Positions 22,597 to 44,563 of a stretch of DNA of 52,169 bases are shown here, piece after piece. Made by a program: the position numbers and the translations under genes. The number at the start of each line of letters is the position of its first letter. Positions within the stretch are counted from its first letter, which is position 1. Source of the stretch: Sphingobacterium sp. (GTDB taxonomy: Bacteria; Bacteroidota; Bacteroidia; Sphingobacteriales; Sphingobacteriaceae). Where the stretch lies: positions 1-52,169 of the forward strand of contig JAITLW010000145.1 of NCBI GenBank assembly GCA_031277715.1, in the 5' to 3' direction. The notes beneath the pieces were generated by a model. The model ran no database searches. It saw only the letters and a program-made list of their open reading frames with translations, and was not told the DNA's origin.

Positions 22597-23670
22597 ATGA
22601 ATGCAATTTTTGGAGTACTGTTTCATTTTATCGGCGGATTTGCTTCAGGTAGTTTCTATGTTCCTTATAAACGAGTAAAAGGTTGGTCTTGGGAAGCAAT
22701 GTGGATTCTTGGAGGATTGTTTTCGTGGATCATAGTTCCTCCAATTGCGGCATGGCTTACGATCCCTGATTTTTTCGAGATCATCAAAGACGCAGATTCT
22801 TCTACTATTGGATTTACTTTTTTATTCGGTGTGCTTTGGGGAATCGGAGGGTTGACATTTGGGTTGGGCATCCGTTATCTGGGGGTGTCTTTGGGCAGTA
22901 GTGTCATGTTAGGGTTAAGCATGGTATTCGGTGCACTTATGCCTGCTGTATATTACTATTTTAAGGTAGTGCCTGGCAAGCAAGGACTTGATTACTTCTT
23001 TACAACGGACGCTGGACTTTGTATCATAGGGGGGCTCATATTATGTATAATTGGAGTTGTTTTATGTGGAAGAGCAGGAATATTGAAGGAGAGGAGTCTT
23101 AAGACAAAACAAGTAGAAAATAAGAGTGAGTATAATTTTGGTATCGGGATCACTGTCGCCATTATTTCTGGTATCCTGAGTGCTTGTTTCAACTTTGCAA
23201 TAGAAGCAGGCAAACCCATGGCTGAAGTCGCAAACTTGCTGTGGAAACAAAACCATGCTGACCAGGGCGAATTCCTGTTTCAAAATAACGTCTCTTATAT
23301 TATTATTCTTTGGGGCGGATTCACCTCCAATTTTGTATGGTGTTTATTTCTTCTTTTTAAGAACAAGAGTTACCAGGATTACACCAATTTTAAAACCCCT
23401 ATTTCCAAAAATATGCTACTCTGTGCCATTGCTGGGACAACCTGGTACTTACAATTTTTCTTTTATGGGATGGGCGAGAGTCGCTTAGGTAATGGCGCAA
23501 GCTCTTGGATTTTACATATGGCATTCATCATATTGATATCAAATGCATGGGGAGTCTTTCTCAAAGAATGGAAGGGGGTAAGCCGCCCGACATACCTAGC
23601 TATTTTATCAGGTATTGTACTGATTGTTGTGTCGATTTGTGTTATCGGTTTTGCGAAGACTTTAACATAA
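22597..23670 (+). CDS. rhaT: L-rhamnose/proton symporter
   Basis: Multi-TM MNAIFGVLFHFIGGFASGSFYVPYKRVKGWSWEAMWILGGLFSWIIVPPIAA; next to rhamnose catabolic genes. Confidence 0.9.
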   Translation: MNAIFGVLFHFIGGFASGSFYVPYKRVKGWSWEAMWILGGLFSWIIVPPIAAWLTIPDFFEIIKDADSSTIGFTFLFGVLWGIGGLTFGLGIRYLGVSLGSSVMLGLSMVFGALMPAVYYYFKVVPGKQGLDYFFTTDAGLCIIGGLILCIIGVVLCGRAGILKERSLKTKQVENKSEYNFGIGITVAIISGILSACFNFAIEAGKPMAEVANLLWKQNHADQGEFLFQNNVSYIIILWGGFTSNFVWCLFLLFKNKSYQDYTNFKTPISKNMLLCAIAGTTWYLQFFFYGMGESRLGNGASSWILHMAFIILISNAWGVFLKEWKGVSRPTYLAILSGIVLIVVSICVIGFAKTLT

Positions 23671-23754
23671 GAAAAAAGAAGCTCGTTAGTCAAAAGCGGT
23701 AACGGGTAGCAACGAGAAATTTAGATATTCTTTTAACAATAGAAATAAAACTAT

Positions 23755-25863: not shown

Positions 25864-25945
25864 TGATTTGGATTTATGCAATTATCTGCTGTATATTGAA
25901 ACGCCAAAAACTACTTATAAACAACATAAAAAACCAAAATAACTT

Positions 25946-27220
25946 ATGATACTGGATAAACAGATTATTGAGCGGCATAATAATGATTTGATGGGCCAAC
26001 ACAATAAAAAGTTTCAGCTTTTAGCAGAAGAAATTTCTGGCCTCAATGAAATTCTAAACAAATTGCAACGTTTCCAAATTGCTATTCCAAGTTGGGCATT
26101 AGGGACAGGGGGGACGAGGTTTGGACGTTTTTCGGGCAGGGGAGAGCCCGCAACACTAGAACAAAAACTAGAAGATGTCGGGTTGCTACATGCACTTAAT
26201 GGATCTAGCGGGGCGATTTCGCTGCATATTCCCTGGGATATACCTAGTGATGTACAACATATCAAACAATTAGCTACTGATCTTAACCTGTCTTTTGACG
26301 CTGTCAATTCTAATACCTTTCAAGATCAGCCCCAACAGAAGTATAGTTACAAATATGGTTCGTTGCATCATGTCGATCCGAGAGTTCGGCAGCAAGCGGT
26401 GGAGCATAATATTGAAGTCATGCAATATGGGGTTGAGCTGGGATCGAAGGCATTGACAATATGGTTAGCTGATGGTTCTTCTTTCCCTGGGCAGTTGAAT
26501 TTTCGTGATTCTTTTTTAAATACACTATCCAGTATGGAAGAAATATATAAACATCTCCCTGCCGATTGGAAGTTATTTGTCGAATACAAAGCCTTTGAAC
26601 CATTTTTTTATTCTACAACAATAGGAGATTGGGGACAATCCCTGTTATTGGCCAATAAGCTCGGACCAAAAGCCTATACTTTGGTGGACCTGGGACATCA
26701 CCTCCCTAATGCTAATATTGAACAGATTGTTTCACTATTGATGATGGAAGGTAAGTTAGGTGGGTTTCATTTCAACGATAGTAAATATGCTGACGATGAC
26801 TTGACAGCAGGTTGTATCAAGCCATATCAGCTTTTCTTAATCTTCAACGAGCTTATAGATGGCATGGATTTGAGAGGGATTGATCATGCAACAGGTTTAG
26901 GTTGGATGATTGATGCTTCGCATAATATGAAAGATCCTTTGCTGGATTTATTACAATCCGTCGAAGCTATTAAAATAGCCTATGCACAGGCACTTTTGGT
27001 TGATCGGGTCGCTTTGCGAAAAGCTCAACACGAAAATGATATCATAACGGCTCAAGAAATACTACAAGGAGCATTTCGTACCGATGTGAGGCCTTTGTTG
27101 GCAGAAGCCCGATATAGGGAAGGAGCGGCAATAAATCCCCTGCAACTTTTTCAAAAAGAAAGTCTACGGGAGGAATTGGTACGGGAACGAGGTGAACATT
27201 CTGTCGGTACGGGGTTGTAA
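25946..27220 (+). CDS. rhaI: L-rhamnose isomerase (RhaI type)
   Basis: IAIPSWALGTGGTRFGRF...SLHIPWD...KLFVEYKAFEPFFYSTTIGDWG...GGFHFNDSKYADDDLTAG. Confidence 0.9.
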   Translation: MILDKQIIERHNNDLMGQHNKKFQLLAEEISGLNEILNKLQRFQIAIPSWALGTGGTRFGRFSGRGEPATLEQKLEDVGLLHALNGSSGAISLHIPWDIPSDVQHIKQLATDLNLSFDAVNSNTFQDQPQQKYSYKYGSLHHVDPRVRQQAVEHNIEVMQYGVELGSKALTIWLADGSSFPGQLNFRDSFLNTLSSMEEIYKHLPADWKLFVEYKAFEPFFYSTTIGDWGQSLLLANKLGPKAYTLVDLGHHLPNANIEQIVSLLMMEGKLGGFHFNDSKYADDDLTAGCIKPYQLFLIFNELIDGMDLRGIDHATGLGWMIDASHNMKDPLLDLLQSVEAIKIAYAQALLVDRVALRKAQHENDIITAQEILQGAFRTDVRPLLAEARYREGAAINPLQLFQKESLREELVRERGEHSVGTGL

Positions 27221-27232
27221 TACCAAAGTGTC

Positions 27233-28588
27233 ATGAACAGTAATAAGATTCCGGTTATTGCAATATTCGATATCGGAAAGACAAATAAAAAGGTCTTTCT
27301 GTTTGATCAGGATTATCAAATCGTTTTCGAGCAGTCTGCCACTTTTCAAGAGCTCCTCGACGAAGATGGCGATTATTGCGAAGACCTTACGGCCTTGACA
27401 GGTTTTGTCTTGCGCACGCTCCAGAAGATAAATGATATAGAAGAGTATGAACTAAAAGCGGTCAATTTTTCCGCTTATGGTGCTAGTTTCGTTTATTTAG
27501 ATGAACAGCATACCCCATTAACCGTTCTTTATAATTACCTTAAAGAATACCCAATACATATTGCACAACAGTTATATGCACAATACGGAGGCGAAAACAG
27601 CTTTGCGTTGGAAACAGCTTCGCCTCCGTTAGGAAGCTTGAATTCCGGATTACAGGTACTGCGGCTAAAAAAAGAAAATCCTGAATTATTTGAACATGTG
27701 GCTTATGCTTTACACCTGCCACAGTACCTTAGTTGTCTATTGACAGGTATACCCACTACCGATATTACCAGTATTGGCTGTCATACCGCACTATGGAATT
27801 ATGAAATCCATCAATATCATCAATGGGTATTTGATGAAGGGCTTGATAAGTTATTCCCAGCGCAATATTCCTTTGATACGGTTTTCGATAGTACACTGTC
27901 TTCTTCAAGTTATCTGGTAGGAACGGGACTTCATGATAGTTCGGCAGCAGTCATTCCTTACCTTTTAAAATTTAAAGAACCTTTTATTTTGATATCAACA
28001 GGGACATGGTGCATTTCCCTGAATCCATTTAATAATGCTCCTTTGACGGCCGAAGAATTAGCCCAGGACTGCTTATTCTACCTCTCTTATGTTGGGGTCC
28101 CCGTTAAGGCCTCGCGTCTATTCGGAGGGTATGTTCATGAGCAGCAAGCTAAACGTATTGCCGATTTTTTTGGTGTACCCATCAGTGAACTGTTTATGTT
28201 AAAGAAAGATGGACACTTGTTACAATGTGTACGTAACAGATCAGTGTCTTCTGATTTGAATGCCTTTAGCAAAGTCAATTTACAGGAATTTGAAAGTCCA
28301 GAGCACGCCTACCATAGCTTGGTGTACCACTTGGTCAAATCCCAGGCTCAGAGCACACGGTTAATAATAGATTCGGAGCGCGTGTCCCATCTCTGTGTAG
28401 ATGGCGGATTTAGTGACAATGATATCTACATGCAGTTACTTGCTCAAGAGTTTCCTACTATGAAAGTGTATGCTGCTTCCATGCCACAAGCCTCAGCGAT
28501 TGGGGCAGCTATGGCTCTTCATGCCCATTGGAACAATAAAAAGCTACCTCAAAATCTTATTCATTTACGTCATATTATTGATGTTTAA
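27233..28588 (+). CDS. FGGY carbohydrate kinase, probable rhamnulokinase
   Basis: FDIGKTNKKVFLFD N-terminal ATPase motif; LISTGTWCISLNPF; context. Confidence 0.85.
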   Translation: MNSNKIPVIAIFDIGKTNKKVFLFDQDYQIVFEQSATFQELLDEDGDYCEDLTALTGFVLRTLQKINDIEEYELKAVNFSAYGASFVYLDEQHTPLTVLYNYLKEYPIHIAQQLYAQYGGENSFALETASPPLGSLNSGLQVLRLKKENPELFEHVAYALHLPQYLSCLLTGIPTTDITSIGCHTALWNYEIHQYHQWVFDEGLDKLFPAQYSFDTVFDSTLSSSSYLVGTGLHDSSAAVIPYLLKFKEPFILISTGTWCISLNPFNNAPLTAEELAQDCLFYLSYVGVPVKASRLFGGYVHEQQAKRIADFFGVPISELFMLKKDGHLLQCVRNRSVSSDLNAFSKVNLQEFESPEHAYHSLVYHLVKSQAQSTRLIIDSERVSHLCVDGGFSDNDIYMQLLAQEFPTMKVYAASMPQASAIGAAMALHAHWNNKKLPQNLIHLRHIIDV

Positions 28589-28705: not shown

Positions 28706-31700
28706 ATGGAAAGAAAACTAAAACATTATGGATTTCTTCTTTGCATGACCCTCATCATTGGTATTCCCTATGGTCTTTTTGCACAGGTTGGAAAGAGTAT
28801 TCAAGGGATTATTGTGAGCGGTTCCAATGGCCAGCCATTGAGCGGAGTATCTATCAAGGAAGAAGGCAGTAGAAACGCCAGCTCGTCAGATCAAGATGGC
28901 CGTTTTTCAATTAAAGTCAATAAAGACAAAGTTGTCCTGTTGATTCAGTATGTTGGGTATGTCTCCCAGCGCGTTGAAGCTTCAGTGGGGGCTGTATTAA
29001 ATGTGAATCTTCAGGAAGACAACAAAGTATTGAATGAGGTGGTGGTTGTCGCTTATGGTTCTATCAAGAAGAAGGATCTAACGGGCTCGGTGTCTACCGT
29101 TGACAACAGGGCGCTAGAGGTACAATCCAATTCTACCGTGAGTCGAGCTTTGGAAGGTGCTGCACCAGGTATACAAATAGCGGCAGTCGATGGACAGCCT
29201 GGTTTGGATATGGGGATACGTATCCGCGGTATCGGTTCGGCGAGTCAGAACAATGCAAATGCTTTAGTTGTTATTGATGGAGTACCTGCACAGAACGACA
29301 ACCCTTTAGCGACATTAAATCCGAAAGACATTCAAAGTATAAGCATTTTGAAGGATGCCGCTTCTACAGCACTCTATGGTGCTCGTGGAGCAAATGGTGT
29401 CGTGTTGGTTACAACAAAAAAAGGACGCTCGGATCGGACCAATATTTCTTTTGAAAGTAAATGGGGCATGAATCAGGTGGGGCCTTATCAGTTTGACAAA
29501 ATAGCAAAGCCCCAGGACGTTTATGAATTCACATGGCTGTCAATCTATAACTCTGTTCGGTATGGAGTTGATGGCTCTGGAATAGCCAAAAACTATACGA
29601 CCAATTTTGAAAATCCGAATATGAGTCATGAAGATGCGGCTCGATTCGCCAGTGAGCACCTTTTTGATTATATCGGATCGACAACTAAATTTCAGCGTAA
29701 CAATTTAGGCAACTGGATGCTGTACGATGTACCAGGTGCAGTCTATACCACTACAGGGGCAGGTAATACCGCTAGCTCCACTATGAGTGGTGCTTATTTG
29801 GTGAATCCCGATGGAAAAATAAATCCCAATGCTAACCTATTATACAGTGATCGTTATGACGATTACCTGTTAAAAAATAGAACGAGACAGGATTATAATT
29901 TATCTATTTCTGGAGGAAGTGAAAAAGTCAGTTACTTTTTGTCCGGAGGTTATTTAGAAGACCCTTCTTACATCCGCGGTTCTTCCTTTAAACGTTATAA
30001 TGGACGGGCCAACTTTGAAGCCCAGGTTACCGATTGGTTTAAAGCAGGTGGAAATGTAGGCTATTCGAGACGGGCTACACAATCACCGGCAACACGTTTT
30101 GGACGTAATGCAGGGAGTTCTTCTGCCAATGCATTCCGTTTTATAAATGGACAGAATCCATTGGTACAGCTCTATGCTAGAGATAAAAACGGAGGTATTA
30201 TTATGGAAAATGGCAAAGAAAAAGTCCATGTCCTAGAAGGCGATACCTATTCTCCGCTTGGGCCGACATCTGCCGCATACGGGTCTACCAATGTTCTTAC
30301 TGTTCTGGACAATGACATTGATTTAAGACAGGCTGATGATTGGAACTCAAGGGTATTTGGACAGATCAAATTTTTAGATGATTTTACATTTACGGCCAAT
30401 TTAGCGATGGACAAATTCAATGAAATGAGGACGCGCTATTGGAATAGCGAGACAGGGCAGGCACCTGGAATTGGTGCGCTCGGAAAAACGGCTTCATCCT
30501 CTACGATAATAAATTTGCAACAGCTTTTAAACTATTCAAAGACCATAGGTGCACATAATGTAGAGGCATTACTGGGGCATGAATTTGACTCCTTTAAAAG
30601 CGAAGGGCTCAATTATAGGTCATCATATGCATTGATTGAAAACTTTCCGTCCTATGTCAATTTCGTAGGGCGATATGATGGAGGAACTTTTGCCAATCCT
30701 GGGGGCAGTGAGGATATCCGAAAGATGGAAAGTTATTTCTCCCGTGTCAATTATAACTATGATGATCGCTACTTCTTTCAAGGGTCGATTCGTAGAGACG
30801 GCTCCTCTAAGTTTAAACTGAAAGAAAATAGATGGGGTACATTTTGGTCTTTAGGGGCAGGATGGCGTTTGGACAACGAAGCATTTATGGCCAATACAAA
30901 AGGTTGGTTGGATATGTTGAAGGTCCGTGGTAGTTATGGTGTTATTGGTAACCAAAATGGTGTTGGTAATTATTCCGGGTATCAAACTTGGTCTTATGGA
31001 GCAACCTATACCTCAACGACAAATGGCACAGGTATTCCAGCAAACTTTACGTTAAACCTTAATGGCTATGTCAACGATCAGCTGACTTGGGAAAACATAC
31101 ACACGTTGGATGGAGGTATCGACTTTAGTTTTCTTAATCGTGTACGTGGATCATTCGATTTCTACAGCCGTACTACAGTCAATGCCATTTGGAATCAGCC
31201 TCTTGCCATCTCAAAAGGACAGTCTTCGATAGCTACAAATTCTGCCAGGCTAAACAATAAAGGTATTGAAGTCGAACTCGCAGTTGATGTCATCAAGAAC
31301 AAGGATTTCTTATGGACACTTTCGACAAATGGGACTCATTATAGGACCATTCTAAAAGAAGTACCCGCAGGTACGGGATCGGATGCATTAGGTGGTAATT
31401 GGACTTCACCTGTCGAAGGATGGAGTGCAACGGGGACATCGGGAGTCAATCAGATCGCATACCTACGTGGCGAAGGTAAAGACTTCTATAACATATATAT
31501 GCTCAAGTATGGCGGTGTAGACCAAAGCACAGGCCTGCCTTTATTTTATCACCGGGTATCCAAAGCAGAAGCCGATGCTGGAGCTTATCCAGGCTATAAG
31601 GAAGGCGACAGCTTTACGACCACAGATTATTCTAAAGCTAGCAGATATGAAATGGGAAGCGCTCTTCCGAAATGGATTGGCGGTTTCAGTACCTTCTTTA

Positions 31701-32182
31701 AGTATAAAAACTTTGATCTCTATGCATCATTTGCCTATCAGTTAGGAGGCAAGTTCTTTAGTACAGAATATGGAAATGGATTGTATGTCAGTGACAATCC
31801 TACTCAAGCCCTTTCTTCTGAGTTATTGGGTAATACCTTTACGCAAGATAACAAAGGAGCCAAGTTCCCAATGGTTATGTATGGTAATACATACGGTAAT
31901 GGTGCTACTACGGGCAGTTGGTTGTACAGTGACCTAGCCCTGTTCAGTGCGTCCTACCTCAATTTCAAGAATATTACTATTGGTTACACGTTGCCAGAAT
32001 CTATTTCGAGCAAAGCCAAAATCAAGAGATTGCGTGTGTTTGCGTCAGGAGACAATATTTTTATGAAAACGTCACATTCAGGAATCGATCCGAGACAGTC
32101 TTTGGTTGGAGGATATGAGGTAGCTGCCTATTCGTATCCAACCATGCGCACATTCTCTGGAGGTATTAATATTGATTTTTAA
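28706..32182 (+). CDS. SusC-like TonB-dependent outer-membrane transporter
   Basis: 1158 aa; CarboxypepD_reg-like N-terminus, NEVVVVAYGSIKKKDLTGSVSTV, plug IRGIGSASQNNANALVVIDGVP. No N-terminal STN domain seen. Confidence 0.97.
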   Translation: MERKLKHYGFLLCMTLIIGIPYGLFAQVGKSIQGIIVSGSNGQPLSGVSIKEEGSRNASSSDQDGRFSIKVNKDKVVLLIQYVGYVSQRVEASVGAVLNVNLQEDNKVLNEVVVVAYGSIKKKDLTGSVSTVDNRALEVQSNSTVSRALEGAAPGIQIAAVDGQPGLDMGIRIRGIGSASQNNANALVVIDGVPAQNDNPLATLNPKDIQSISILKDAASTALYGARGANGVVLVTTKKGRSDRTNISFESKWGMNQVGPYQFDKIAKPQDVYEFTWLSIYNSVRYGVDGSGIAKNYTTNFENPNMSHEDAARFASEHLFDYIGSTTKFQRNNLGNWMLYDVPGAVYTTTGAGNTASSTMSGAYLVNPDGKINPNANLLYSDRYDDYLLKNRTRQDYNLSISGGSEKVSYFLSGGYLEDPSYIRGSSFKRYNGRANFEAQVTDWFKAGGNVGYSRRATQSPATRFGRNAGSSSANAFRFINGQNPLVQLYARDKNGGIIMENGKEKVHVLEGDTYSPLGPTSAAYGSTNVLTVLDNDIDLRQADDWNSRVFGQIKFLDDFTFTANLAMDKFNEMRTRYWNSETGQAPGIGALGKTASSSTIINLQQLLNYSKTIGAHNVEALLGHEFDSFKSEGLNYRSSYALIENFPSYVNFVGRYDGGTFANPGGSEDIRKMESYFSRVNYNYDDRYFFQGSIRRDGSSKFKLKENRWGTFWSLGAGWRLDNEAFMANTKGWLDMLKVRGSYGVIGNQNGVGNYSGYQTWSYGATYTSTTNGTGIPANFTLNLNGYVNDQLTWENIHTLDGGIDFSFLNRVRGSFDFYSRTTVNAIWNQPLAISKGQSSIATNSARLNNKGIEVELAVDVIKNKDFLWTLSTNGTHYRTILKEVPAGTGSDALGGNWTSPVEGWSATGTSGVNQIAYLRGEGKDFYNIYMLKYGGVDQSTGLPLFYHRVSKAEADAGAYPGYKEGDSFTTTDYSKASRYEMGSALPKWIGGFSTFFKYKNFDLYASFAYQLGGKFFSTEYGNGLYVSDNPTQALSSELLGNTFTQDNKGAKFPMVMYGNTYGNGATTGSWLYSDLALFSASYLNFKNITIGYTLPESISSKAKIKRLRVFASGDNIFMKTSHSGIDPRQSLVGGYEVAAYSYPTMRTFSGGINIDF

Positions 32183-32199
32183 TCTTATAGACATTTGTT

Positions 32200-33786
32200 A
32201 TGAAAAGAATATATATATACACATTAGGTATTGTTGCTTTATTTTCATGCAGCAAACAGCTGGATGTTACGCCACCTAATAATATTACTGAAGAACAGAT
32301 CCAGGAACTGTTGTCTAGCGGAGATGAGAAGAAAATACAACTGGTGCTCGGTGGTATGGCCAATAATATGCCTAAGATGATAAATTTTGGTGCATTAGGG
32401 TCGGAATCTAGATATGCTAGTAATCAGGGGTTTGATGTGATGCGTAACTTAGAAGGAAATGATATTGTATTCGGTACCCGGAACCTAGTTATGTTTGGAG
32501 GTGACGAGTATAACTTACGTGATTTTATCTCAGACGCATCGGATAAGAATTTTCCCTATTGGAGTTACGGATGGAATATGGTCAATACAGCCAATAAAAT
32601 GCTCAATTATATCGGGGATGATATTGTAAATACAAATAAGAAGCTACAGGAGTTTAAGGCTAGGGGTTTGATGTTGAGGGCGTTTGCTTATAATTATTTG
32701 ATGGAGAATTATCAAGATGCTTATCTACAGGGAGGGAAGTCGAAGTTAGGATTGTCTCTGTATGATCGTTTTGCTCCAGTACAGGAGAGTAAAGCTCGCT
32801 CTAGCTCAGAAGAAACCTATGCATTTATTAAAAATGATATCAAAGAGGCGATCCGTTTGTTGAAGGAAGCAGGAGTTGGGTTTACAGCAGATAAAACTGA
32901 CTTTGATTTAGGTGTAGCTTATTTCATCTTAGCAAAAGTGTCGTTGTGGACAGGAGACTGGACAACGACTGTAAGTGCCTGTAATGAAATATTGGCTAAA
33001 TACCCAAATCTGATGACGGAGACTGTTTATGGCGGGAAAAACAAAGCTGGTGCTACGACGCCTGAATTTAGACCTGAGCAGAATGGCTTCTTAAATATAG
33101 ATATCAACCCCGAAGTTATCTTAGGCTTCCCCGTGGGAGAGGCTGTAACAGTGCACAACTGGTGGATGAACTGCTTTGCTGAGGGAAATGGAGGATTGGG
33201 AGAAGGATTTGCCCGAATAGACGAACGGTTATATAACAAGATCGATAACCATGATTTTAGGATAAACAGTTTTCTGAAAAACGATTTTGGGGAGTACACC
33301 TATCCTACCAATGGTGTCAAACGCATTATACCAAGTTATGCTAACTTGAAATTCGCAGCAACACACGGTATGGGCAGTGAAGATAAAAAGAATGTCGGGC
33401 GGGTGAGCTGTTACTACATGCGTAGTTCAGAGGTATTGTTGATGAAAGCGGAAGCACTTGCTCAGGATCAAAAAGGAGGAGATGCTAAGGATGCATTGAA
33501 TGTTTTATTGAAAGCTAGAACCATAGCAGGACAAACGGTCCTTACCTGCGATACCTATAGTGGTATGCAAGGTATGGATCCACTGGATATGGTCAAGTTT
33601 CAGACCCGTCTAGAGCTTTGGGGAGAAGGAGGCAGAGAGTTTTATAATAATAAACGCTGGAATATTCCGGTTAATAGAGCTAGTTCGGCAAATCATGTTG
33701 ATAAATCCAGTTATGCAGTCAGTAAAATGACATTGCAGATCCCATTGGATGAGATGCAGTACAATAATAAAGCTGATCAAAATTAA
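32200..33786 (+). CDS. SusD/RagB-like surface lipoprotein
   Basis: Lipobox ALFSCSKQ; directly after susC; C-terminal LELWGEGGREFYNNKRWNIP. Confidence 0.95.
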   Translation: MKRIYIYTLGIVALFSCSKQLDVTPPNNITEEQIQELLSSGDEKKIQLVLGGMANNMPKMINFGALGSESRYASNQGFDVMRNLEGNDIVFGTRNLVMFGGDEYNLRDFISDASDKNFPYWSYGWNMVNTANKMLNYIGDDIVNTNKKLQEFKARGLMLRAFAYNYLMENYQDAYLQGGKSKLGLSLYDRFAPVQESKARSSSEETYAFIKNDIKEAIRLLKEAGVGFTADKTDFDLGVAYFILAKVSLWTGDWTTTVSACNEILAKYPNLMTETVYGGKNKAGATTPEFRPEQNGFLNIDINPEVILGFPVGEAVTVHNWWMNCFAEGNGGLGEGFARIDERLYNKIDNHDFRINSFLKNDFGEYTYPTNGVKRIIPSYANLKFAATHGMGSEDKKNVGRVSCYYMRSSEVLLMKAEALAQDQKGGDAKDALNVLLKARTIAGQTVLTCDTYSGMQGMDPLDMVKFQTRLELWGEGGREFYNNKRWNIPVNRASSANHVDKSSYAVSKMTLQIPLDEMQYNNKADQN

Positions 33787-34031: not shown

Positions 34032-34853
34032 ATGAAGAACCAACTTAATAACGAGCAGATTACATTTTACCAGGAGAACGGTTTTTTGGTAGTAGACGAC
34101 TTTTTGAATTCTGATGAACTACAGCATTGGCGAGATGTTGTGTTCCATGCCGTTGAGCAACGCGCCGGGCAAAAGATGCCAGGTAAAGAAGCTAAAGTCG
34201 GAGATGATGATGGTATCAATAAGGATGCTGATTATTTTGGAAAAGTATTTGATCAATTGCTGAATCTTTGGCAGACCGATGCGGGTGTGAAGGAACTGAT
34301 GCTGGATCGGCGTATCGGTGAAATGGCAGCAAAGTTGGCTGGAGCTGAAGGTATTCGTATTTGGCACGACCAGGCGCTATTTAAAAGACCTTTTGCAAAT
34401 CCTACAGCGTGGCACTTGGATACTCCTTTTTGGTCTTTCTCTGACCGAAATGCGCTATCCATTTGGATTGCACTGGATGATTCTACCTTAGAGAATGGGT
34501 GTATGTATTTTGTACCAGGTTCTTATAAGCATACAAGTTTTGAGAATTTAGGAATAGGAAAGAATATGGCTACTATTTTTGAGGCTTATCCCGAGATGGC
34601 GAAGATTAATCCTGTCCCTACGCCCTTGAAAGCAGGAAGCTGTACATTTCACAACGGGTTGACGATACACGGTGCAGGCCCCAACATGACGAATGGATTT
34701 CGGAGAGCGATGACTTGTGCCTATATGCCTGATGGTAATGTATTCAACGGACAGGCTAATATTATTCCTGAGGATTATTTGAAGGATCTCAAAATCGGAG
34801 ATCTATTAAAAAATGATGAACAAAACCCATTGATCTACCATTCGTCATGGTAA
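34032..34853 (+). CDS. Phytanoyl-CoA dioxygenase (PhyH) family 2-oxoglutarate/Fe(II) oxygenase
   Basis: HxD in AWHLDTPFWSFSDRNALSIWIALDD, ENGCMYFVPGSYKH, distal His/Arg in TIHGAGPNMTNGFRRAMT. No signal peptide. Confidence 0.9.
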   Translation: MKNQLNNEQITFYQENGFLVVDDFLNSDELQHWRDVVFHAVEQRAGQKMPGKEAKVGDDDGINKDADYFGKVFDQLLNLWQTDAGVKELMLDRRIGEMAAKLAGAEGIRIWHDQALFKRPFANPTAWHLDTPFWSFSDRNALSIWIALDDSTLENGCMYFVPGSYKHTSFENLGIGKNMATIFEAYPEMAKINPVPTPLKAGSCTFHNGLTIHGAGPNMTNGFRRAMTCAYMPDGNVFNGQANIIPEDYLKDLKIGDLLKNDEQNPLIYHSSW

Positions 34854-35683
34854 AAGTGGATTTTTTCTACCCTCGATGGGGAAGTGAACATATAGCATGG
34901 GACACATTTTTGGATTCAATTCAGAAGGAAGGTTATTGTGGCGTCGAATGGTTTCCTTTTGGTGAGGATACTGACCATGAAGAGGTGTTGCGGTTACTCC
35001 ACGGTAGAGGATTAAAGTATACGATTGTAACTTGTGTAGTGGAACCTTTCGATCATGTTCGTGTTTACTATCAGCTACTGGAAAAACAACTGTCCTATTA
35101 TGGTGAATTAGCAAAAAAAATATTTAGACCAGAAGTTATTTCTGTCCAGATGGGACGAGAATATTTTGAAGTCGAAGACATTGTGCAAGGATTGCACCTT
35201 TGTGAACGTATATCCCAACAATATGGTGTTCCTGTTCTTCAGGAAACACATCGTAACAAGTGGAACTATGGATTACATACTATCCCTAGAATCCTGAAAT
35301 TATTTCCAGGACTACGGCTCACTTTAGATATCTCCCACTGGTATTGTGTTTCTGAAAGCTATCTAGAGGATAGAAAGCATGTTTTAGAGGAGATATTGCC
35401 TCATGTAGATCATATACATGCCAGGGTAGGACATAGCCAGGGCTCGCAGGTGCCAGACGTTCGAGAACGTGCGTATAGACAGATCGTAGATACTCATGTG
35501 GCGGTATGGCAAAAGTGGATAGACCTACAAAAAGACCGTGGAGTAGAACAGATTACCATATGTACTGAATTTGGCCCGCCACCCTATTTGATTAGCTCAG
35601 GCAATCAAGATTTAGATAAAGACAAGCAATGGCAACAAAATATCTGGATTAAAAAACACCTAGAGCACACACTGATCCTTTAA
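34847..35683 (+). CDS. Sugar phosphate isomerase/epimerase (xylose isomerase-like TIM barrel)
   Basis: Candidate metal-site motifs LQETH, LTLDISHW, HIHARVGH, TEFGPP. Overlaps the previous gene by 7 nt. Confidence 0.85.
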   Translation: MVKVDFFYPRWGSEHIAWDTFLDSIQKEGYCGVEWFPFGEDTDHEEVLRLLHGRGLKYTIVTCVVEPFDHVRVYYQLLEKQLSYYGELAKKIFRPEVISVQMGREYFEVEDIVQGLHLCERISQQYGVPVLQETHRNKWNYGLHTIPRILKLFPGLRLTLDISHWYCVSESYLEDRKHVLEEILPHVDHIHARVGHSQGSQVPDVRERAYRQIVDTHVAVWQKWIDLQKDRGVEQITICTEFGPPPYLISSGNQDLDKDKQWQQNIWIKKHLEHTLIL

Positions 35684-35711: not shown

Positions 35712-38576
35712 ATGAAGAGAAGAACATTTTTACAGCAGAGCAGTTTACTTGGTGCCTCATTACTATTGGCTAGGCCTTTCCAGACTTTGGCATCGTCGGG
35801 GTTAGCAGATAAGGATACTTATTATAAGTTGTTTCTGTCTCCGGATGCGGCCTATAGGCCCTTTGTACGGTGGTGGTGGAATGGTAATAAAGTCACTAAG
35901 CAAGAGTTGAGCAGAGAATTGAAACTGTTGAAAGATGTGGGTATAGGAGGAGTTGAAATTAATCCCATTTCGTTTCCCAAGAGAGCCGATGATCTAGGGA
36001 TCCGATCCTTACGGTGGCTAAGTGACGAGTGGGTAGACATGGTGCAATATGCATCCAATGAAGGCAAGAAGGAAGGAATGATTTCCGACCTGATTGTTGG
36101 TTCAGGGTGGCCTTTCGGATCCGAAGAATTGAAGGAAGAAGAAACTGCTCAAGTGGTGTTGGTACACGCTGAGCCAGTCGAGGGACCGATGTTATATCGG
36201 GCCAAACCTTACCACATATTTAGCAATGTGGATCCAGGCGTAACAGATAAGAATACGATGCGCAGCCCGGAGATCATGTCGTTAAAATTGGTCAGAGACC
36301 CGATGGATTCCATCGATAACATAGTCGATTTCTCTTCAGAAATAGGTAAAGACGAAATCGTGATAACTATACCAGAAGGGAAGCATGTTGTATATGCATT
36401 GGTTAGGTTTAGGGCATTTGCATCGGTAATCAATGGTGCTCCGGGTGCTGCGGGATCTATATTAAATCACATGGATCAAAAAGCCGTGAAGAGCTACCTG
36501 CATCGGATGTCTGATAAGATGCAACAACAAATAGGTCCCCTTAAAAACTATGTGAGGGCCTTGTTTACAGATAGTATGGAGCTAGAAGGAAGCAATTGGT
36601 GTGATGATTTTGCCATAGAATTTCAAAAAAGAAGAGGATATGATCTTATGCCTTACCTTCCTTTTATCCTATTCAAAGTTGGGCGCCTAGGTGCTGTTGT
36701 TGACGAAAACTATGGCGCCAAGAAAAGTCCGCAATTAATCGAAACTTTGAATAGGGTCCGTTTTGACTATGAGTTTACGAAAGCCTGCCTGCTCAAAGAA
36801 CGTTTTACAGATACTTATACCAGCTGGTGTAGAGAGCTAGGCGTCAAGTCTCGTGCACAAGCTTATGGAAGAGGCTTCTTCCCATTAGAAAGTAGTCTGG
36901 ACTATGATATTCCTGAAGGGGAGTCATGGACGACAAATTACCTCCGTCACAAACTGGGAGAGGAAATGTCCAATGAAGATTACCGTAGAGGCAGAGGCTA
37001 TACAATGATCGACAAGTATGTCTCTTCTGCCGCACATTTGAAAGGCAAAAGAGTCGTTAGTTGTGAAGAAATGACCAATACCTATCTTGTTTTTAATGCA
37101 ACACTAGAGCTTCTCAAATTAGGCTCCGATCAGAGTGCTATGACGGGCATTACCCATTCTATATGGCATGGGTTTAATTACTCGCCCAAAGAAGCTGCAT
37201 TTCCTGGCTGGATACAGTATGGTTCCTTTTATAATGAGCGTAATAATTGGTGGCCTTATTTTAAATACCTAAATAATTATAAAGCAAGGTTGTCATCGCA
37301 ATTACAGAATGCAGATTATTTTGCTGATATCGCGATACTACCAGCCAACTATGACCTCTGGTCAGAAAATGGTGTACAGACAGACCCTTTTCCAGAAAAG
37401 CTGAATGTTCCCTATACCTCTATGCTGTGGGAAGCCATCAATAAAAACGGTGGAAACGCCGATTATATAACGGAGATCATTCTGCAGGACTGTCAGGTGG
37501 AAAACGCATCTCTGCGATATGGTAATAGACGTTACTCCGTACTGTTTTTACCAGGACTAAAGCGTATGACCCTGACCGCAATGCAGAAAATCTTGCAATT
37601 TGTGAAAGGGGGCGGTCGCGTATTTGCAATAGAAACGGTTCCTGAAAAATCATTAGGATTGCATCAATCGCAAGTACATGATGCCGAGATACAGGCTGTA
37701 CTCCAACAGCTAAGACAGTATCCGCAGCAGTTTGTTACGGTAAAGAAACCTGTTGATAACAATTTTATCGATTGGTACAGCGACCTTTTGAAAAGCCATC
37801 GTCTTCCAGGTTACTTGAGTGTCTCTAAAACAGACCCCTATGTAATGCAGATGCGTTACAAGCGAGATGATGGCACTGAGTTCTATTTTATTCAAAATGC
37901 ACACAAATTCAATAGTTGCCAATGGAGTTGCACTTTTTTAGCTCCAGAACTTCAGAAACTTCAATGTTGGTTTTGGAATTTAGATACAGGAGAGCGCTAT
38001 AAAGTGAGCCTTGAAAAGAACATGGACCTGTCATTAGATCTAGGTCCTACCGATTCTCTTTTATTCGTGTTTGATAGAAATAAAACAGGAGAAACTTGGA
38101 AACCTCTCCCTACATCCGGAAAAAATGAACAAGCATTGGATCAACAGTGGGATCTAGAACTTAAACATGGCCAAGAATTGACTTCAAATACACTCAAGTT
38201 GAACAATCTAGTTGATTTCAAAGATGATGAGCGGTTGGTTTCTTTCTCTGGTGAAGCTATCTACAAAAAGACGATCGCTTGGTCTGGAAGTACTAAGGCG
38301 GTGTTAAACTTGGGAAAGGTTGCAGGTATATCCGAGTTATTTGTCAACGGTCGATCAGCAGGAGTCAAATGGTACGGTAGACGTCTGTATGACTTGTCTT
38401 CCTTACTTATACAAGGTACGAATAATTTAGAAGTTCGTGTCACTACGACAATGGGAAACTATTTAAAAACATTAGTAAATAATGAAAATGCACAGTATTG
38501 GGTCAATAGAAAGGGACGCGAACAAGATATTCAATCTATGGGACTTATTGGACCAGTAACACTATATACAATTTAG
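35712..38576 (+). CDS. GH106-like glycoside hydrolase (putative alpha-L-rhamnosidase)
   Basis: 954 aa; N-terminal RPFVRWWWNGNKVTKQELSRELKLLKDVGIGGVEINPI; C-terminal jelly-roll with VNGRSAGVKWYGRRLYDL. Tat-like signal MKRRTFLQQSSLLGASLLLA. Confidence 0.8.
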   Translation: MKRRTFLQQSSLLGASLLLARPFQTLASSGLADKDTYYKLFLSPDAAYRPFVRWWWNGNKVTKQELSRELKLLKDVGIGGVEINPISFPKRADDLGIRSLRWLSDEWVDMVQYASNEGKKEGMISDLIVGSGWPFGSEELKEEETAQVVLVHAEPVEGPMLYRAKPYHIFSNVDPGVTDKNTMRSPEIMSLKLVRDPMDSIDNIVDFSSEIGKDEIVITIPEGKHVVYALVRFRAFASVINGAPGAAGSILNHMDQKAVKSYLHRMSDKMQQQIGPLKNYVRALFTDSMELEGSNWCDDFAIEFQKRRGYDLMPYLPFILFKVGRLGAVVDENYGAKKSPQLIETLNRVRFDYEFTKACLLKERFTDTYTSWCRELGVKSRAQAYGRGFFPLESSLDYDIPEGESWTTNYLRHKLGEEMSNEDYRRGRGYTMIDKYVSSAAHLKGKRVVSCEEMTNTYLVFNATLELLKLGSDQSAMTGITHSIWHGFNYSPKEAAFPGWIQYGSFYNERNNWWPYFKYLNNYKARLSSQLQNADYFADIAILPANYDLWSENGVQTDPFPEKLNVPYTSMLWEAINKNGGNADYITEIILQDCQVENASLRYGNRRYSVLFLPGLKRMTLTAMQKILQFVKGGGRVFAIETVPEKSLGLHQSQVHDAEIQAVLQQLRQYPQQFVTVKKPVDNNFIDWYSDLLKSHRLPGYLSVSKTDPYVMQMRYKRDDGTEFYFIQNAHKFNSCQWSCTFLAPELQKLQCWFWNLDTGERYKVSLEKNMDLSLDLGPTDSLLFVFDRNKTGETWKPLPTSGKNEQALDQQWDLELKHGQELTSNTLKLNNLVDFKDDERLVSFSGEAIYKKTIAWSGSTKAVLNLGKVAGISELFVNGRSAGVKWYGRRLYDLSSLLIQGTNNLEVRVTTTMGNYLKTLVNNENAQYWVNRKGREQDIQSMGLIGPVTLYTI

Positions 38577-38579
38577 ATT

Positions 38580-40064
38580 ATGAACCTATTAAGAACACTT
38601 TTTTTACTGTTTCTATCTTTCGTATACGGAGCAGTATCTGCTCAGGACTATAAGGTCTCTGATTTTGGTATCAATGGCGACGGTCGGGTCCTAAATACAC
38701 GATCTATTCAGGCCGCGATTGATTTTCTTACCAATAAAGGAGGGGGAACTCTAGTGTTTACCCCAGGCAATTATGTAACTGGATCCATTTATTTGAAATC
38801 TAATGTCACCTTACATTTGGAAGAGGGGGCGCACCTATTAGGATCAAATAATCCATTTGATTATGTCAAGGATAGCGTTGTCAACTGGCAGTCGATGATT
38901 TTTGCCATTAGACAGGAGAACATTGGGATTGTCGGCAAAGGAACTATCAATGGTCGAGGATTCCAGACCGCTGTCAATGCTGTAGAAAATGTACATAAAG
39001 GTATTGTTCAGGATGAGTTGAAGTTAGATCGTTTAAGGGAGTGGAACCGGCCTGAAAACATATATTTCAGAGAATGTAAGAATGTCCTGATTAAAGATAT
39101 TACACTTCGAGATCCTGCTAGTTGGAACCAAACCTATGATCAATGTGATGGGTTACATGTAGAGGGAATCTATGTAGATAGCAAATCCTATTGGAACAAC
39201 GATGGAATCGATGTCGTAGACTGTAAGAATGTAGTTATTAAGAATTCATTTTTTGATGTAGCTGATGATGCTATTTGTTTTAAATCACATGATCCCAATG
39301 GCGTTTGTGAAAATGTATTGGTAGAGAACTGTACGGCACGCTCCAGCGCTAGTGCGCTTAAGTTTGGAACTGTATCTAGAGGTGGTTTTCGGAATTTTGT
39401 CGTTAGAAATTTGGTCGTCTATGATACCTATCGGTCTGCAATTACCTTCGCCGCAGTAGACGGAGGTTTTGTCGAAAATATATTGGTCGATGGGGTGAGA
39501 AGTATCAACACTGGGAATGTGATTTTTTTAAGAATTGGAGACCGTTGGAGCAAAGGGCGTAAACCTTCCATGAAAAATGTAACCATAAAAAATGTATATG
39601 CTGAAGTTCCGTTGAATAAACCTGATTTAGGATATAATTACGAAGGTCCTATTGAAGATATGCCACGTAATATTTCTCCCGCCAGTATCATTGGTCTTCC
39701 AGAATATAAGATTGAAAATGTTAATCTAGAAAATATTGAATTTGTTTACCCTGGAGGGGGAAACCCACTATTTGCGCATCGGGGATTAGATGCACAGTCA
39801 TTGGAGGGTATACCCGAAATGCCAGCCGCTTATCCTGAATTTTCTCAGTTCAAGGAATTACCAGCTTGGGGGCTTTATATCAGACATGCCAAGGATATTA
39901 ACCTGAAAAATATCAAATTCACAATCCAAAAAGAAGATTATCGTCCAGCTATTGTGGCGGATGATCTACAAGGCGGAAACTGGCAATTTAAAGCTTTTCT
40001 AAATGATCAGGCTTTGGAGAAGAGTTATCATATTCATAACTCGACTAATGTAAACGTTAAATAA
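38580..40064 (+). CDS. GH28 family glycoside hydrolase (pectin/rhamnogalacturonan-type)
   Basis: Signal peptide; beta-helix with SYWNNDGIDVVDCKN and ADDAICFKSHD; N-terminal SDFGINGDGRVLNTRSIQAAIDF. Confidence 0.92.
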   Translation: MNLLRTLFLLFLSFVYGAVSAQDYKVSDFGINGDGRVLNTRSIQAAIDFLTNKGGGTLVFTPGNYVTGSIYLKSNVTLHLEEGAHLLGSNNPFDYVKDSVVNWQSMIFAIRQENIGIVGKGTINGRGFQTAVNAVENVHKGIVQDELKLDRLREWNRPENIYFRECKNVLIKDITLRDPASWNQTYDQCDGLHVEGIYVDSKSYWNNDGIDVVDCKNVVIKNSFFDVADDAICFKSHDPNGVCENVLVENCTARSSASALKFGTVSRGGFRNFVVRNLVVYDTYRSAITFAAVDGGFVENILVDGVRSINTGNVIFLRIGDRWSKGRKPSMKNVTIKNVYAEVPLNKPDLGYNYEGPIEDMPRNISPASIIGLPEYKIENVNLENIEFVYPGGGNPLFAHRGLDAQSLEGIPEMPAAYPEFSQFKELPAWGLYIRHAKDINLKNIKFTIQKEDYRPAIVADDLQGGNWQFKAFLNDQALEKSYHIHNSTNVNVK

Positions 40065-40073
40065 AAGGAGATT

Positions 40074-40799
40074 ATGAAAATATATATTAGTGCATTCGTT
40101 TTTATTCTGTGGAGCATACAGGTATCTGCTCAGGATTTCAATGCATCCCTTTTTGGGTGTAAATCAGATGGTGTGACCAATAATGTAGGTTCTATACAAT
40201 ATGCAATAGATTACATTGCTAAAAAAGGTGGTGGTACCCTACATTTTTATGTGGGGCGCTATGTGACCAGCGGTTTTTCATTAAAGTCTAACGTCCATAT
40301 TGAACTTCATGAAGGTGCCGTTCTGGTTGGTAGTTCAAATATCTATGACTATCAGCAGATCGATGGGAGATATACGCTGATATCAGGCGTGGGACAGCAG
40401 AATATTCAGATCAAAGGTTTGGGAGTGATCGATGGACAATCTAAAGCCTTGGCTTTACATGTTCGTTCATTGAAAGAAAAAGGACTACTGAGTTCTGAAT
40501 TTGCAATGGATAAGGTTTCTCAACTGTATTTTTCAAAAACGAGCAATATTGCAATAGAGGGAATTATGCAAATTAATAGCCTGGGAGCTCTAAATTCCTT
40601 TGTCGACTGCCAATCTATAAAGTTAAGGAAACTTGAAATCAATAGTCCGCAGAGCAATGCCGTGGTGTTGTTGAATTCTTCTCAGGTTAATTTATCGGAT
40701 TTGTTCTTTAAATCTACCAAGCAAGCATTGGTACAAGAAGGTACAAATTCCAATGTTTTAAAAACGAATTGCCTATTAGCAAACGGCAAGTCCATTTAA
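40074..40799 (+). CDS. Half-length GH28-like beta-helix protein, predicted catalytically inactive
   Basis: 241 aa with signal peptide (SAQ|DFNASLFGCKSDG). Matches the N-terminal half of both flanking GH28 proteins, but NNDGID and ADDAI regions are replaced (PQSNAVVLLNSS; STKQALVQE). Confidence 0.85.
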   Translation: MKIYISAFVFILWSIQVSAQDFNASLFGCKSDGVTNNVGSIQYAIDYIAKKGGGTLHFYVGRYVTSGFSLKSNVHIELHEGAVLVGSSNIYDYQQIDGRYTLISGVGQQNIQIKGLGVIDGQSKALALHVRSLKEKGLLSSEFAMDKVSQLYFSKTSNIAIEGIMQINSLGALNSFVDCQSIKLRKLEINSPQSNAVVLLNSSQVNLSDLFFKSTKQALVQEGTNSNVLKTNCLLANGKSI

Positions 40800-40808
40800 C
40801 GTATAACT

Positions 40809-42275
40809 ATGAAAATCAGGTTCGCACTACTGACATTTTTGTCTTTCATACTCGTCAACTTTGTGTCGGCGAAAGAATATAATGCATCACTATTTGGCAT
40901 TAAATCCAATGGTACGACGCTCAACACAACTTCCATCCAGAAAGCTATAGACTTTATCCATGAACAGGGTGGAGGGACGCTTCGTTTTTTTGTAGGTAGG
41001 TACCTTACAGGAACTATTATTTTAAAAGAGAATGTACATATTAAGCTGGAAGAAGGAGCAATATTGGTTGGGTCAACAAATATTTATGATTATAATATAG
41101 AGACACCCAATTGCGCGTTAGTTTACGCAAACAAAGCCAATAATATTTCTATTCGGGGCAAGGGGGTAATTGACGGGCAAGGGCGTGATTTAGCTTATAA
41201 TCTGTTAGGGCAGATTCATAGTGGAATTATTAAAGACCCATTGGACTACGACCGTCCTCGTAACAGAAGGCCTAAAGCTATTTATTTTAGAGAATGTGAA
41301 AATGTAGCCATTCATAGTATTACCATTAAAAATGCAGCAGATTGGGTACAGGTCTATGATCAATGTGTTAATACGGTTGTGGATAGCATCACGGTAGATA
41401 GCAAAGCCTTTTGGAACAATGACGGAATTGACATTGTTGACTGTAAGAATTTCAAGTTGCTTAATTCATTTATTGACGCTGCCGATGATGCGATTTGTTT
41501 GAAATCTCACGATGCGACCAAGCGTTGTGAGAATATAGAGATTCGGAATTGTGTAGGTCGATCAAGTGCTAATGGTATAAAGTTTGGGACAGTCTCTGCA
41601 GGTGGTTATAAAAATGTAAGGATTATTAATAATAAGATTTACGACACCTTCCGTTCTGTTTTTACAATAGCCACTCCGGATGGAGGTATCGTTGAAGATA
41701 TCGTGGTCGACAGTTTGCAGGGAATCAATGTCGGTAATCCCTTTTATTTGAGGATAGGTGCCCGTTGGAATAAGGGGCGGGAGGGGGCTATTCGAAATAT
41801 CCTTATTCAAAATGTAAAAGTAGAAGTTTCTAAGGATAAACCGGATATCGGTTATGATTATGAAGGACCAGTAGAAGATTACCCTAGAAATATGTCCCCT
41901 TCAGGTATTGTGGGCCTCAAGAATGTTCCTATTGCTGACGTTACATTTCGTAATATAGAATTGGTTTACCCAGGTGATGCCAATCCTCATTATGCTTATC
42001 GTGGCACTACTAAGGCCGCACTGGATAGTATTCCAGAGATGGAGAATTCCTATCCTGAATTTTCACAGTTCAAAGAGCTTCCCGCTTGGGGATTTTTTGT
42101 GCGGCATGCCAAGAATATTAAATTTGAAAATGTAACGCTAACACTGAAAGAGAGTGATTATAGACCAGCATTTGTTTTTGACGATGTTCAGGGGTTTAAT
42201 TTGAGTGGAATTAAGTACCTGGGCGCAAAAACTAAGAAAGAAGTCGTTGCTAACAATTCAAAACGTGAAAAGTAA
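40809..42275 (+). CDS. GH28 family glycoside hydrolase
   Basis: Paralogue of 38580-40064: AFWNNDGIDIVDCKN, AADDAICLKSHD, FYLRIGARWNKGREG. Confidence 0.92.
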   Translation: MKIRFALLTFLSFILVNFVSAKEYNASLFGIKSNGTTLNTTSIQKAIDFIHEQGGGTLRFFVGRYLTGTIILKENVHIKLEEGAILVGSTNIYDYNIETPNCALVYANKANNISIRGKGVIDGQGRDLAYNLLGQIHSGIIKDPLDYDRPRNRRPKAIYFRECENVAIHSITIKNAADWVQVYDQCVNTVVDSITVDSKAFWNNDGIDIVDCKNFKLLNSFIDAADDAICLKSHDATKRCENIEIRNCVGRSSANGIKFGTVSAGGYKNVRIINNKIYDTFRSVFTIATPDGGIVEDIVVDSLQGINVGNPFYLRIGARWNKGREGAIRNILIQNVKVEVSKDKPDIGYDYEGPVEDYPRNMSPSGIVGLKNVPIADVTFRNIELVYPGDANPHYAYRGTTKAALDSIPEMENSYPEFSQFKELPAWGFFVRHAKNIKFENVTLTLKESDYRPAFVFDDVQGFNLSGIKYLGAKTKKEVVANNSKREK

Positions 42276-44563
42276 TGAAGAAACTCTTATTCTTTATATC
42301 GGTAGGATTATTTTCCATTGTTACAGCCCATGGGCAGAAGAAACCTGTTGATTACGTAAATCCTTTTATAGGAACAGCCAAGATGGGACACACCTATCCA
42401 GGTGCTACGGTACCATTTGGTGCCATACAGCTCAGCCCAGAGACAGACACCTTGTCTTATGTTTTCAATGGAAAGTATAATAAGGATGTATATCGGTATT
42501 GTGCCGGATATCAGTATGACGACCCTACAATTGTAGGATTCAGCCATACGCACTTTAGCGGTACAGGGCACTCTGACTTAGGTGATTTCTTAATCATGCC
42601 TACCGTTGGCGCCTTACAGTTGAATCCGGGAACAGCAGACAAGCCTGGCTCAGGGTACCGGAGTCGATACAGTCACCAGCATGAAAAAGCAAGTCCGAAT
42701 TATTATCAGGTGTACCTGTCCGATTATGGTATAAATGCTGAACTGACGGCAACAGAGCGTGTAGGGGTACACCGTTACACTTTTCCAAAATCTGATCAGT
42801 CACATTTGATCGTAGATCTTATGGCTGGTATCTATAACTATCCCGAAAAGAATGTCTGGACCGTGGTGCGTGTGGTTAATGATACCCTAATTACAGGTTA
42901 CAGACAGACCAATGGTTGGGCAAGGACACGTACTGTTTATTTTGCGATGTCACTATCTAAACCTTTCAAATCCTATGGCAGTGCCACTCCTGACAAGGAG
43001 ACTGTCTATAAAGGATTCTGGCGCAAGTTTAACCAACGCAATAATTTCCCAGACTTAGCTAGTGCGAATCTCAAATTATACTTCGACTTTGATACAGAGG
43101 ATCAAGAGCAGATCATTGTTAAATTAGCCATATCGCCGGTTAGTCAAAAGAACGCTCTCGAGAATCTACAGCAGGAAGCAGCGCCCTATAGCTTTGATCA
43201 GCTATGGAATAGTGGACGGGACAAATGGTCGAAAGAATTGGAGAAGATTAGTATCGAAACGGTATCTGACGATGATAAGGTGAATTTTTACACCTCGTTG
43301 TACCATACTTTTCTAGGTCCTACACTTTATATGGACCATAATCGGGAGTATAAAGGCCTAGATCAAGATGTACATCGTGCGCAGGGGTTTACGAACTATA
43401 CAACGTTCTCTTTGTGGGATACCTATCGAGCATTGCATCCATTTTTTAATATTGTCCAGCCTCAGCGTAATGCAGATATGGTGAGTTCGATGATGCAACA
43501 TTATAATCAGAGTGTATTGGGCATGTTGCCTATCTGGTCCCATTATGCAAATGATAACTGGTGTATGAGTGGTTATCACAGTGTTTCAGTTATTGCCGAT
43601 GCGATTTTGAAGGGGACTTATAAAGGTGATGCAGAGCAGGCTTTGGAAGCTTGTGTTAGGACATCACAACGACGGGATTTCGAGGGGATAGGTGCTTACA
43701 CCGATTTAGGATATATCCCTGCAGAATCCAATAGCAACTCGGTATCCAGTACATTAGAGTATGCTTATGATGATTGGTGCATTGCGCAACTTGCCAAAAA
43801 AATAGGTAAAGACGATATTTATCAGACTTATATCAAACGCTCTCAAAACTGGAAAAATGTATTCGATAGCACTATTGGTTTTATGCGTCCTAAAGATGCT
43901 ATGGGTAATTTTGTTGCCAATTTTGATGTTCTAGATACCCACGGACAGGGATTTATCGAAGGTAATTCATGGAATTACAGCTTGTTCATACCCCATGATC
44001 CGATGTCTTTAGTTCGTATTTATGGAGGTGATAAGAAGTTTATTACCCATTTAGATTCGCTATTTGAGATGCACCTGCCGGACGAGTTTTTCGAAAATAC
44101 AGAAGACATCACTAGAGAGGGCATTATTGGGAATTACGTGCATGGTAATGAGCCTTCTCATCATGTTGTATATTTATATAACTACGCTGGCGCACCACAT
44201 AAGACCCAGAAACGGGTACGGGATATTATACAGCGTATGTATAGACCTACGCCCGATGGCCTTGGCGGTAACGATGATTGTGGACAGATGAGTGCCTGGT
44301 ACCTTTTTGGAGCACTTGGTTTTTACCCATTATCACCAGGAGCAACGACGTATGATATAGGAAGCCCCGTTGTAAAGCGTGCTGTATTACATTTGGATAA
44401 TGGGCGTAAATTTGAGATTGTCGCTCATAACCAGGGAGCACAGAATGTCTTTGTAAAGCAGGTGATGTTGAACGGGAAGAAAATCGACAACTGGAAAATC
44501 GATCATCAGGACATTATGAATGGGGGGAAATTGGAATATTTTATGACAGCCAAAAGAAAGTAG
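42275..44563 (+). CDS. GH92 family glycosidase (alpha-mannosidase family)
   Basis: DYVNPFIGTAKMGHTYPGATVPFGAIQLSP, GFSHTHFSGTGHSDLGDFLIMP, EGNSWNYSLFIPHD, GNDDCGQMSAWYLFGALGFYPLSPG. Confidence 0.95.
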   Translation: MKKLLFFISVGLFSIVTAHGQKKPVDYVNPFIGTAKMGHTYPGATVPFGAIQLSPETDTLSYVFNGKYNKDVYRYCAGYQYDDPTIVGFSHTHFSGTGHSDLGDFLIMPTVGALQLNPGTADKPGSGYRSRYSHQHEKASPNYYQVYLSDYGINAELTATERVGVHRYTFPKSDQSHLIVDLMAGIYNYPEKNVWTVVRVVNDTLITGYRQTNGWARTRTVYFAMSLSKPFKSYGSATPDKETVYKGFWRKFNQRNNFPDLASANLKLYFDFDTEDQEQIIVKLAISPVSQKNALENLQQEAAPYSFDQLWNSGRDKWSKELEKISIETVSDDDKVNFYTSLYHTFLGPTLYMDHNREYKGLDQDVHRAQGFTNYTTFSLWDTYRALHPFFNIVQPQRNADMVSSMMQHYNQSVLGMLPIWSHYANDNWCMSGYHSVSVIADAILKGTYKGDAEQALEACVRTSQRRDFEGIGAYTDLGYIPAESNSNSVSSTLEYAYDDWCIAQLAKKIGKDDIYQTYIKRSQNWKNVFDSTIGFMRPKDAMGNFVANFDVLDTHGQGFIEGNSWNYSLFIPHDPMSLVRIYGGDKKFITHLDSLFEMHLPDEFFENTEDITREGIIGNYVHGNEPSHHVVYLYNYAGAPHKTQKRVRDIIQRMYRPTPDGLGGNDDCGQMSAWYLFGALGFYPLSPGATTYDIGSPVVKRAVLHLDNGRKFEIVAHNQGAQNVFVKQVMLNGKKIDNWKIDHQDIMNGGKLEYFMTAKRK

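Follow-up and report, generated by a model that had tools for sequence, protein, structure and literature searches.

Gene content of the locus

The window, by which we mean the whole 52,169-nt stretch of Sphingobacterium sp. DNA that was analyzed, carries on its forward strand a set of genes for L-rhamnose uptake and catabolism (22597-28588), comprising RhaT, an aldolase-SDR, an isomerase and an FGGY kinase. These are followed by a SusC/SusD-like pair (28706-33786), identified by its position and sequence; relatives carry orthologues. Genes for a PhyH-type dioxygenase and a xylose-isomerase-like TIM-barrel protein lie at 34032-35683; almost every Sphingobacterium version of the operon keeps them, and they were not recognized in versions from other lineages. 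Past the TIM-barrel gene, the operon encodes, on the same strand, a GH106 alpha-L-rhamnosidase (35712-38576), a full-length GH28 with intact catalytic motifs, designated GH28a (38580-40064), a half-length GH28-like protein, designated HALF (40074-40799), and a second full-length GH28, designated GH28b (40809-42275), followed by a GH92 gene (42275-44563), a CocE/S15 hydrolase and an M28 peptidase. GH28a is the constant upstream neighbor of HALF, while GH28b lies directly downstream of it only in Sphingobacterium. The GH92 gene is found in the operon versions of the window and of the Sphingobacterium genome G012, and in several Bacteroidales versions; the other Sphingobacterium versions lack GH92 between GH28b and CocE. 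The locus showed no lyase gene.

The nearest NCBIfam model for the GH106 protein is BT4145, with a score below its cut-off. GH28a and GH28b are both nearest to BT4146 but likewise fall short of the curated cut-offs and therefore do not count as BT4146 equivalogs. The GH106 enzyme BT4145 acts with the rhamnogalacturonidases BT4146, BT4153 and BT4149 (PMC8002723). Together with the rhamnose genes, the GH106 gene and two GH28s whose nearest model is BT4146 point to a rhamnogalacturonan-type oligosaccharide as the probable substrate of the locus.

HALF is a half-length GH28 homologue with a predicted short beta-helix fold

HALF is a protein of 241 aa with a putative signal peptide at about residues 1-19 (40074-40130), suggested by its sequence, by a low-pLDDT N-terminal helix in the predicted structure and by the hydrophobic N-termini of its family. 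Signal peptides in the family end in ..SAQD or ..SAKD and are not directly followed by a lipobox Cys of the SusE/SGBP surface lipoprotein type; the LFGC pattern of some members sits within the mature N-terminus. Residues 83-233 match the Pfam GH28 family PF00295 at 27.5 bits, above the gathering score of 22.9, placing HALF within the GH28 sequence family. By BLASTP, HALF is 34% identical to GH28b and 32% to GH28a, with alignments covering the N-terminal half of both neighbors, and the two neighbors are 52% identical to each other. A PHROGs search yielded nothing beyond weak matches of tail spikes to the shared beta-helix N-terminus.

The ORF, Pfam, BLASTP and alignment results together bear out the sequence-only reading of this gene as a half-length GH28 paralogue without catalytic motifs, with an intact ORF between two full GH28 genes. 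Its statement that no leftover coding sequence is present also holds, as the intergenic gap on either side of HALF is 9 nt, which leaves no possibility of a coding remnant of the lost C-terminal half. The greater likeness to the downstream paralogue that it described was found mainly in residues 21-100 (40134-40373), the conserved N-terminal cap and first coils, where mean identity across the family is 62% to GH28b and 52% to GH28a.

AlphaFold2 predicted a short beta-helix for HALF, with a mean pLDDT of 93.4 and a pTM of 0.86. The top Foldseek match of this model was PDB entry 4MXN (TM-score 0.86 to the query and 0.93 to the target), from Parabacteroides merdae PARMER_00599, so that the fold anticipated from the letters is seen both in the prediction and in a solved family member. 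The 4MXN sequence matches the HALF family profile end to end (E = 5.4e-84) and is identical over 224/224 residues to the HALF protein of a Parabacteroides locus (L154) in which GH28a lies directly upstream. 4MXN was deposited as an uncharacterized "putative glycosyl hydrolase", and was excluded from a study of fungal GH28 enzymes as "a partial sequence" (PMC8952511). Judged by these matches, it is not a partial GH28; it is the complete natural product of a gene from the same half-length family, which lacks the catalytic residues. Its crystallization indicates that a HALF member can fold without GH28a.

The best full-length GH28 fold match of HALF by Foldseek was the Thermotoga maritima exopolygalacturonase 3JUR, also a GH28 beta-helix. 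Unlike the pairing that we propose below for HALF and GH28a, 3JUR is full-length and active, with no pairing of active and inactive chains. The N-terminal halves of BT4146, BT4153 and BT4149, the GH28 rhamnogalacturonidases of the B. thetaiotaomicron RG-I PUL, share the fold and sequence family of HALF, which differs from them in having neither the catalytic Asp residues nor the C-terminal coils.

Loss of the catalytic residues

The four catalytic Asp of GH28 enzymes, here in NNDGID and ADDAI (the NTD and DD motifs), are absent from 33/33 aligned HALF proteins and present in 65/65 flanking full-length proteins. The Lys of the following coil would fall past the HALF C-terminus, as the chain stops ahead of the ALKFGT coil and the C-terminal coils of a complete beta-helix are missing; the 65 full-length proteins keep all five residues. 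Since the Asp are missing from every aligned member, the catalytic loss is probably ancestral to the half-length family. The sequence-only reading held that the catalytic stretch (40641-40748) had been replaced. None of the catalytic Asp remains there and the C-terminal half is indeed missing, but the stretch appears to be diverged rather than replaced, because other family members align through it.

The family alignment was also searched for conserved catalytic residues specific to HALF, and none was convincing. Positions conserved only in the half-length proteins (98, 150, 182, 219 and 225) hold G, L, V, L and S, at 70-82%. The polar residues that are strongly conserved are instead also found in GH28a, GH28b or both, and most of them belong to the N-terminal cap and first coils. 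Small beta-helix lyases exist, and a family kept under purifying selection (see below) could carry a new active site on the short helix and act as a lyase, esterase, epimerase or hydrolase; given these residue patterns, we consider this very unlikely.

A single-origin family maintained by selection

The operon was found in 13/94 Sphingobacterium genomes, including that of the window. An initial search of relatives had recovered the half-length form from seven Sphingobacterium genomes other than that of the window. Among named genomes, HALF is 100% identical to its counterpart in Sphingobacterium tabacisoli h337T, and half-length forms were also found in Draconibacterium, Mariniphaga, Proteiniphilum, Petrimonas and Tangfeifania. 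Inspection of gene neighborhoods added two more, in Membranihabitans and a Chitinophagaceae MAG. Many others came from 125 genomes of the family of genome G166, which we took as Tannerellaceae because the P. merdae gene is present in its genome G532. Outside Sphingobacterium, the form recurs in Tannerellaceae and in other Bacteroidales as well as in Membranihabitans and the Chitinophagaceae MAG. It is rare overall, with 3/395 genomes of the class sample scoring in the half-length range. A full-length active gene in the place of HALF, which would have spoken against a maintained short form, was found in no relative examined, and all 13 Sphingobacterium operons have the half-length form.

In a tree of the shared region, all 34 half-length rows formed one clade (SH-aLRT 100); the tree was built by a quick method and has long branches, so it does not fix the attachment point among full-length GH28s. 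HALF is homologous end to end to the 4MXN family, whose members are about 240-260 aa long, share a C-terminus ending in ..GK, form this single clade and lie directly downstream of GH28a. On this evidence, HALF belongs to a conserved family of secreted half-length GH28 beta-helices with a single origin, in which the catalytic residues and C-terminal coils have been lost. In a MAG from horse faeces (L059, 9001-9579), a strongly diverged, half-like ORF of 192 aa overlaps a GH28 gene at its end. It may be a further shortened member; with a branch length of 2, it is too diverged to be accepted as a sure one.

The dN/dS of HALF was estimated at 0.05-0.14 (NG86) for pairs with usable dS and at 0.03-0.26 (YN00) for pairs with numerically valid estimates. 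NG86 dS was saturated between the window species and locus L031, and the estimates therefore come from closer pairs elsewhere in the family. Values for GH28a and GH28b were mostly 0.01-0.08, with two pairs to be read with care: L158-L161 for GH28a, whose copies are not orthologous, and L033-L034 for GH28b, which differ by very few changes. In protein distance, HALF has diverged about 2.3 times faster than the GH28 proteins encoded beside it (mean 0.85, compared with 0.37 and 0.39).

This faster evolution and the loss of the catalytic residues and C-terminal half are what a decaying pseudogene or a truncated copy without function might display. The genes carry neither stops nor frameshifts, the ORF is intact in all members of one old clade that spans several orders, the predicted fold is confident, and dN/dS is well below the value near 1 expected of decay in every pair with usable dS. 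We therefore rejected decay, the probability of which is practically negligible. The substitution patterns indicate that the family is kept by purifying selection, in line with the earlier suggestion that HALF may be a pseudo-enzyme under selection and not a gene in decay.

Conservation is unevenly distributed along the protein. HALF proteins share on average 65% identity over residues 21-100 and 29% over residues 190-236; for GH28a and GH28b compared with each other, identity in the region matching the latter is 64%. Conservation is thus strongest at the N-terminal cap and first coils and falls off in the part that would form the GH28 cleft. This pattern bears on the possibility that HALF is a free periplasmic glycan-binding protein, acting independently of GH28a and using the former GH28 cleft to hold rhamnogalacturonan-type oligosaccharides uncut. 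Such a role would suit a secreted, GH28-derived beta-helix that is encoded in a rhamnosidase/GH28 locus and folds alone, as 4MXN does. However, the cleft region is the least conserved part of the protein, no conserved set of cleft residues was found, and the strict linkage to GH28a described below would be left unexplained, making this role unlikely. The conservation suggests instead that the functional surface of HALF is its N-terminal part, although folding alone may explain the same residues.

Linkage of HALF to GH28a

GH28a was found directly upstream of HALF in 35/37 copies (gap -17 to 88 nt) and in 7 more examined in addition, giving 42/44. The same 13/94 Sphingobacterium genomes carry both genes. 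In the Tannerellaceae set, HALF lies beside GH28a in 17/18 genomes with GH28a, the exception being G536, where a tblastn search for HALF in the gap behind GH28a gave chance-level matches only. Genomes G543 and G598 have HALF without GH28a, and these three genomes are 55-83% complete. The HALF of G543 (L153), a MAG close to P. merdae, has no GH28a directly upstream; close relatives have it. In G522, which belongs to the Tannerellaceae set, GH28a and HALF are found together at three separate places (L158, L159 and L160). HALF is thus, by gene order, genetically tied to GH28a, and this linkage suggests a physical pairing. The strictness of the linkage favors a partner role without proving it.

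The full-length partner of HALF could also be GH28b, or HALF could replace a GH28b subunit in a mixed oligomer. The N-terminal region of HALF resembles GH28b most closely; GH28b also has R62 and Y59, which most GH28a proteins lack. Distance correlation (mirror-tree, 16 loci) leans the same way, with partial correlations of HALF of 0.53 with GH28b and 0.19 with GH28a, in a setting where all operon proteins correlate at 0.92-0.97, so that it does not decide between the two partners. GH28 oligomers do occur: the title of a paper on the T. maritima exopolygalacturonase, as cited in PMC10059216, describes "a unique tetramer". Against this arrangement, GH28b is missing from G012, where GH28a-HALF is kept, no GH28b-clade gene was seen in the Parabacteroides loci that retain GH28a-HALF, and the position of HALF relative to GH28b varies between loci. 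We regard GH28b as a distinctly improbable partner.

Proposed role of HALF

The absence of strongly conserved polar residues special to HALF argues against both a new active site and a conserved binding cleft. With a GH28-like N-terminal part and a gene bound to GH28a, the likeliest role is that of a subunit in a GH28 oligomer, for which the T. maritima tetramer offers a precedent. We propose, with a confidence just short of even, that HALF is a non-catalytic accessory subunit of GH28a in the breakdown of rhamnogalacturonan-type oligosaccharides, with the partner, contact surface and substrate inferred. In this model, HALF would most likely be co-transcribed with GH28a and exported to the periplasm, where its conserved N-terminal cap and first coils would pack against GH28a. 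HALF would then either stabilize GH28a or hold the rhamnogalacturonan-type oligosaccharide for it.

Several observations weigh against a GH28a subunit. Operon linkage is not equal to contact, and distance correlation does not single out GH28a. The N-terminal surface of HALF is closer to GH28b than to GH28a, and no HALF-GH28 fusion was seen among the matches in the genomes searched. There are three exceptions to the pairing (G543, G598 and G536), and the crystallized member folds without GH28a. Stated for the whole family, and somewhat more tentatively, HALF may be the pseudo-pectinase subunit of a hetero-oligomeric GH28, with one truncation origin and paired with one GH28 clade across Bacteroidota, that has stood unrecognized in the PDB as 4MXN.

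Pseudo-enzymes are familiar from kinases and proteases, and our literature search on GH28 pseudo-enzymes found no paper with the terms used. These results correct the view that 4MXN is a partial GH28, and the HALF family should not be annotated as active glycosyl hydrolases. The family has been kept over long evolutionary time, beside one GH28 clade, in many gut and environmental bacteria. If the proposal is true, a conserved, dead half-enzyme that pairs with an active paralogue in a pectin-type utilization locus would offer a tractable case of a pseudo-enzyme in glycan breakdown, for which the operon, a crystal structure and Parabacteroides species are already at hand.
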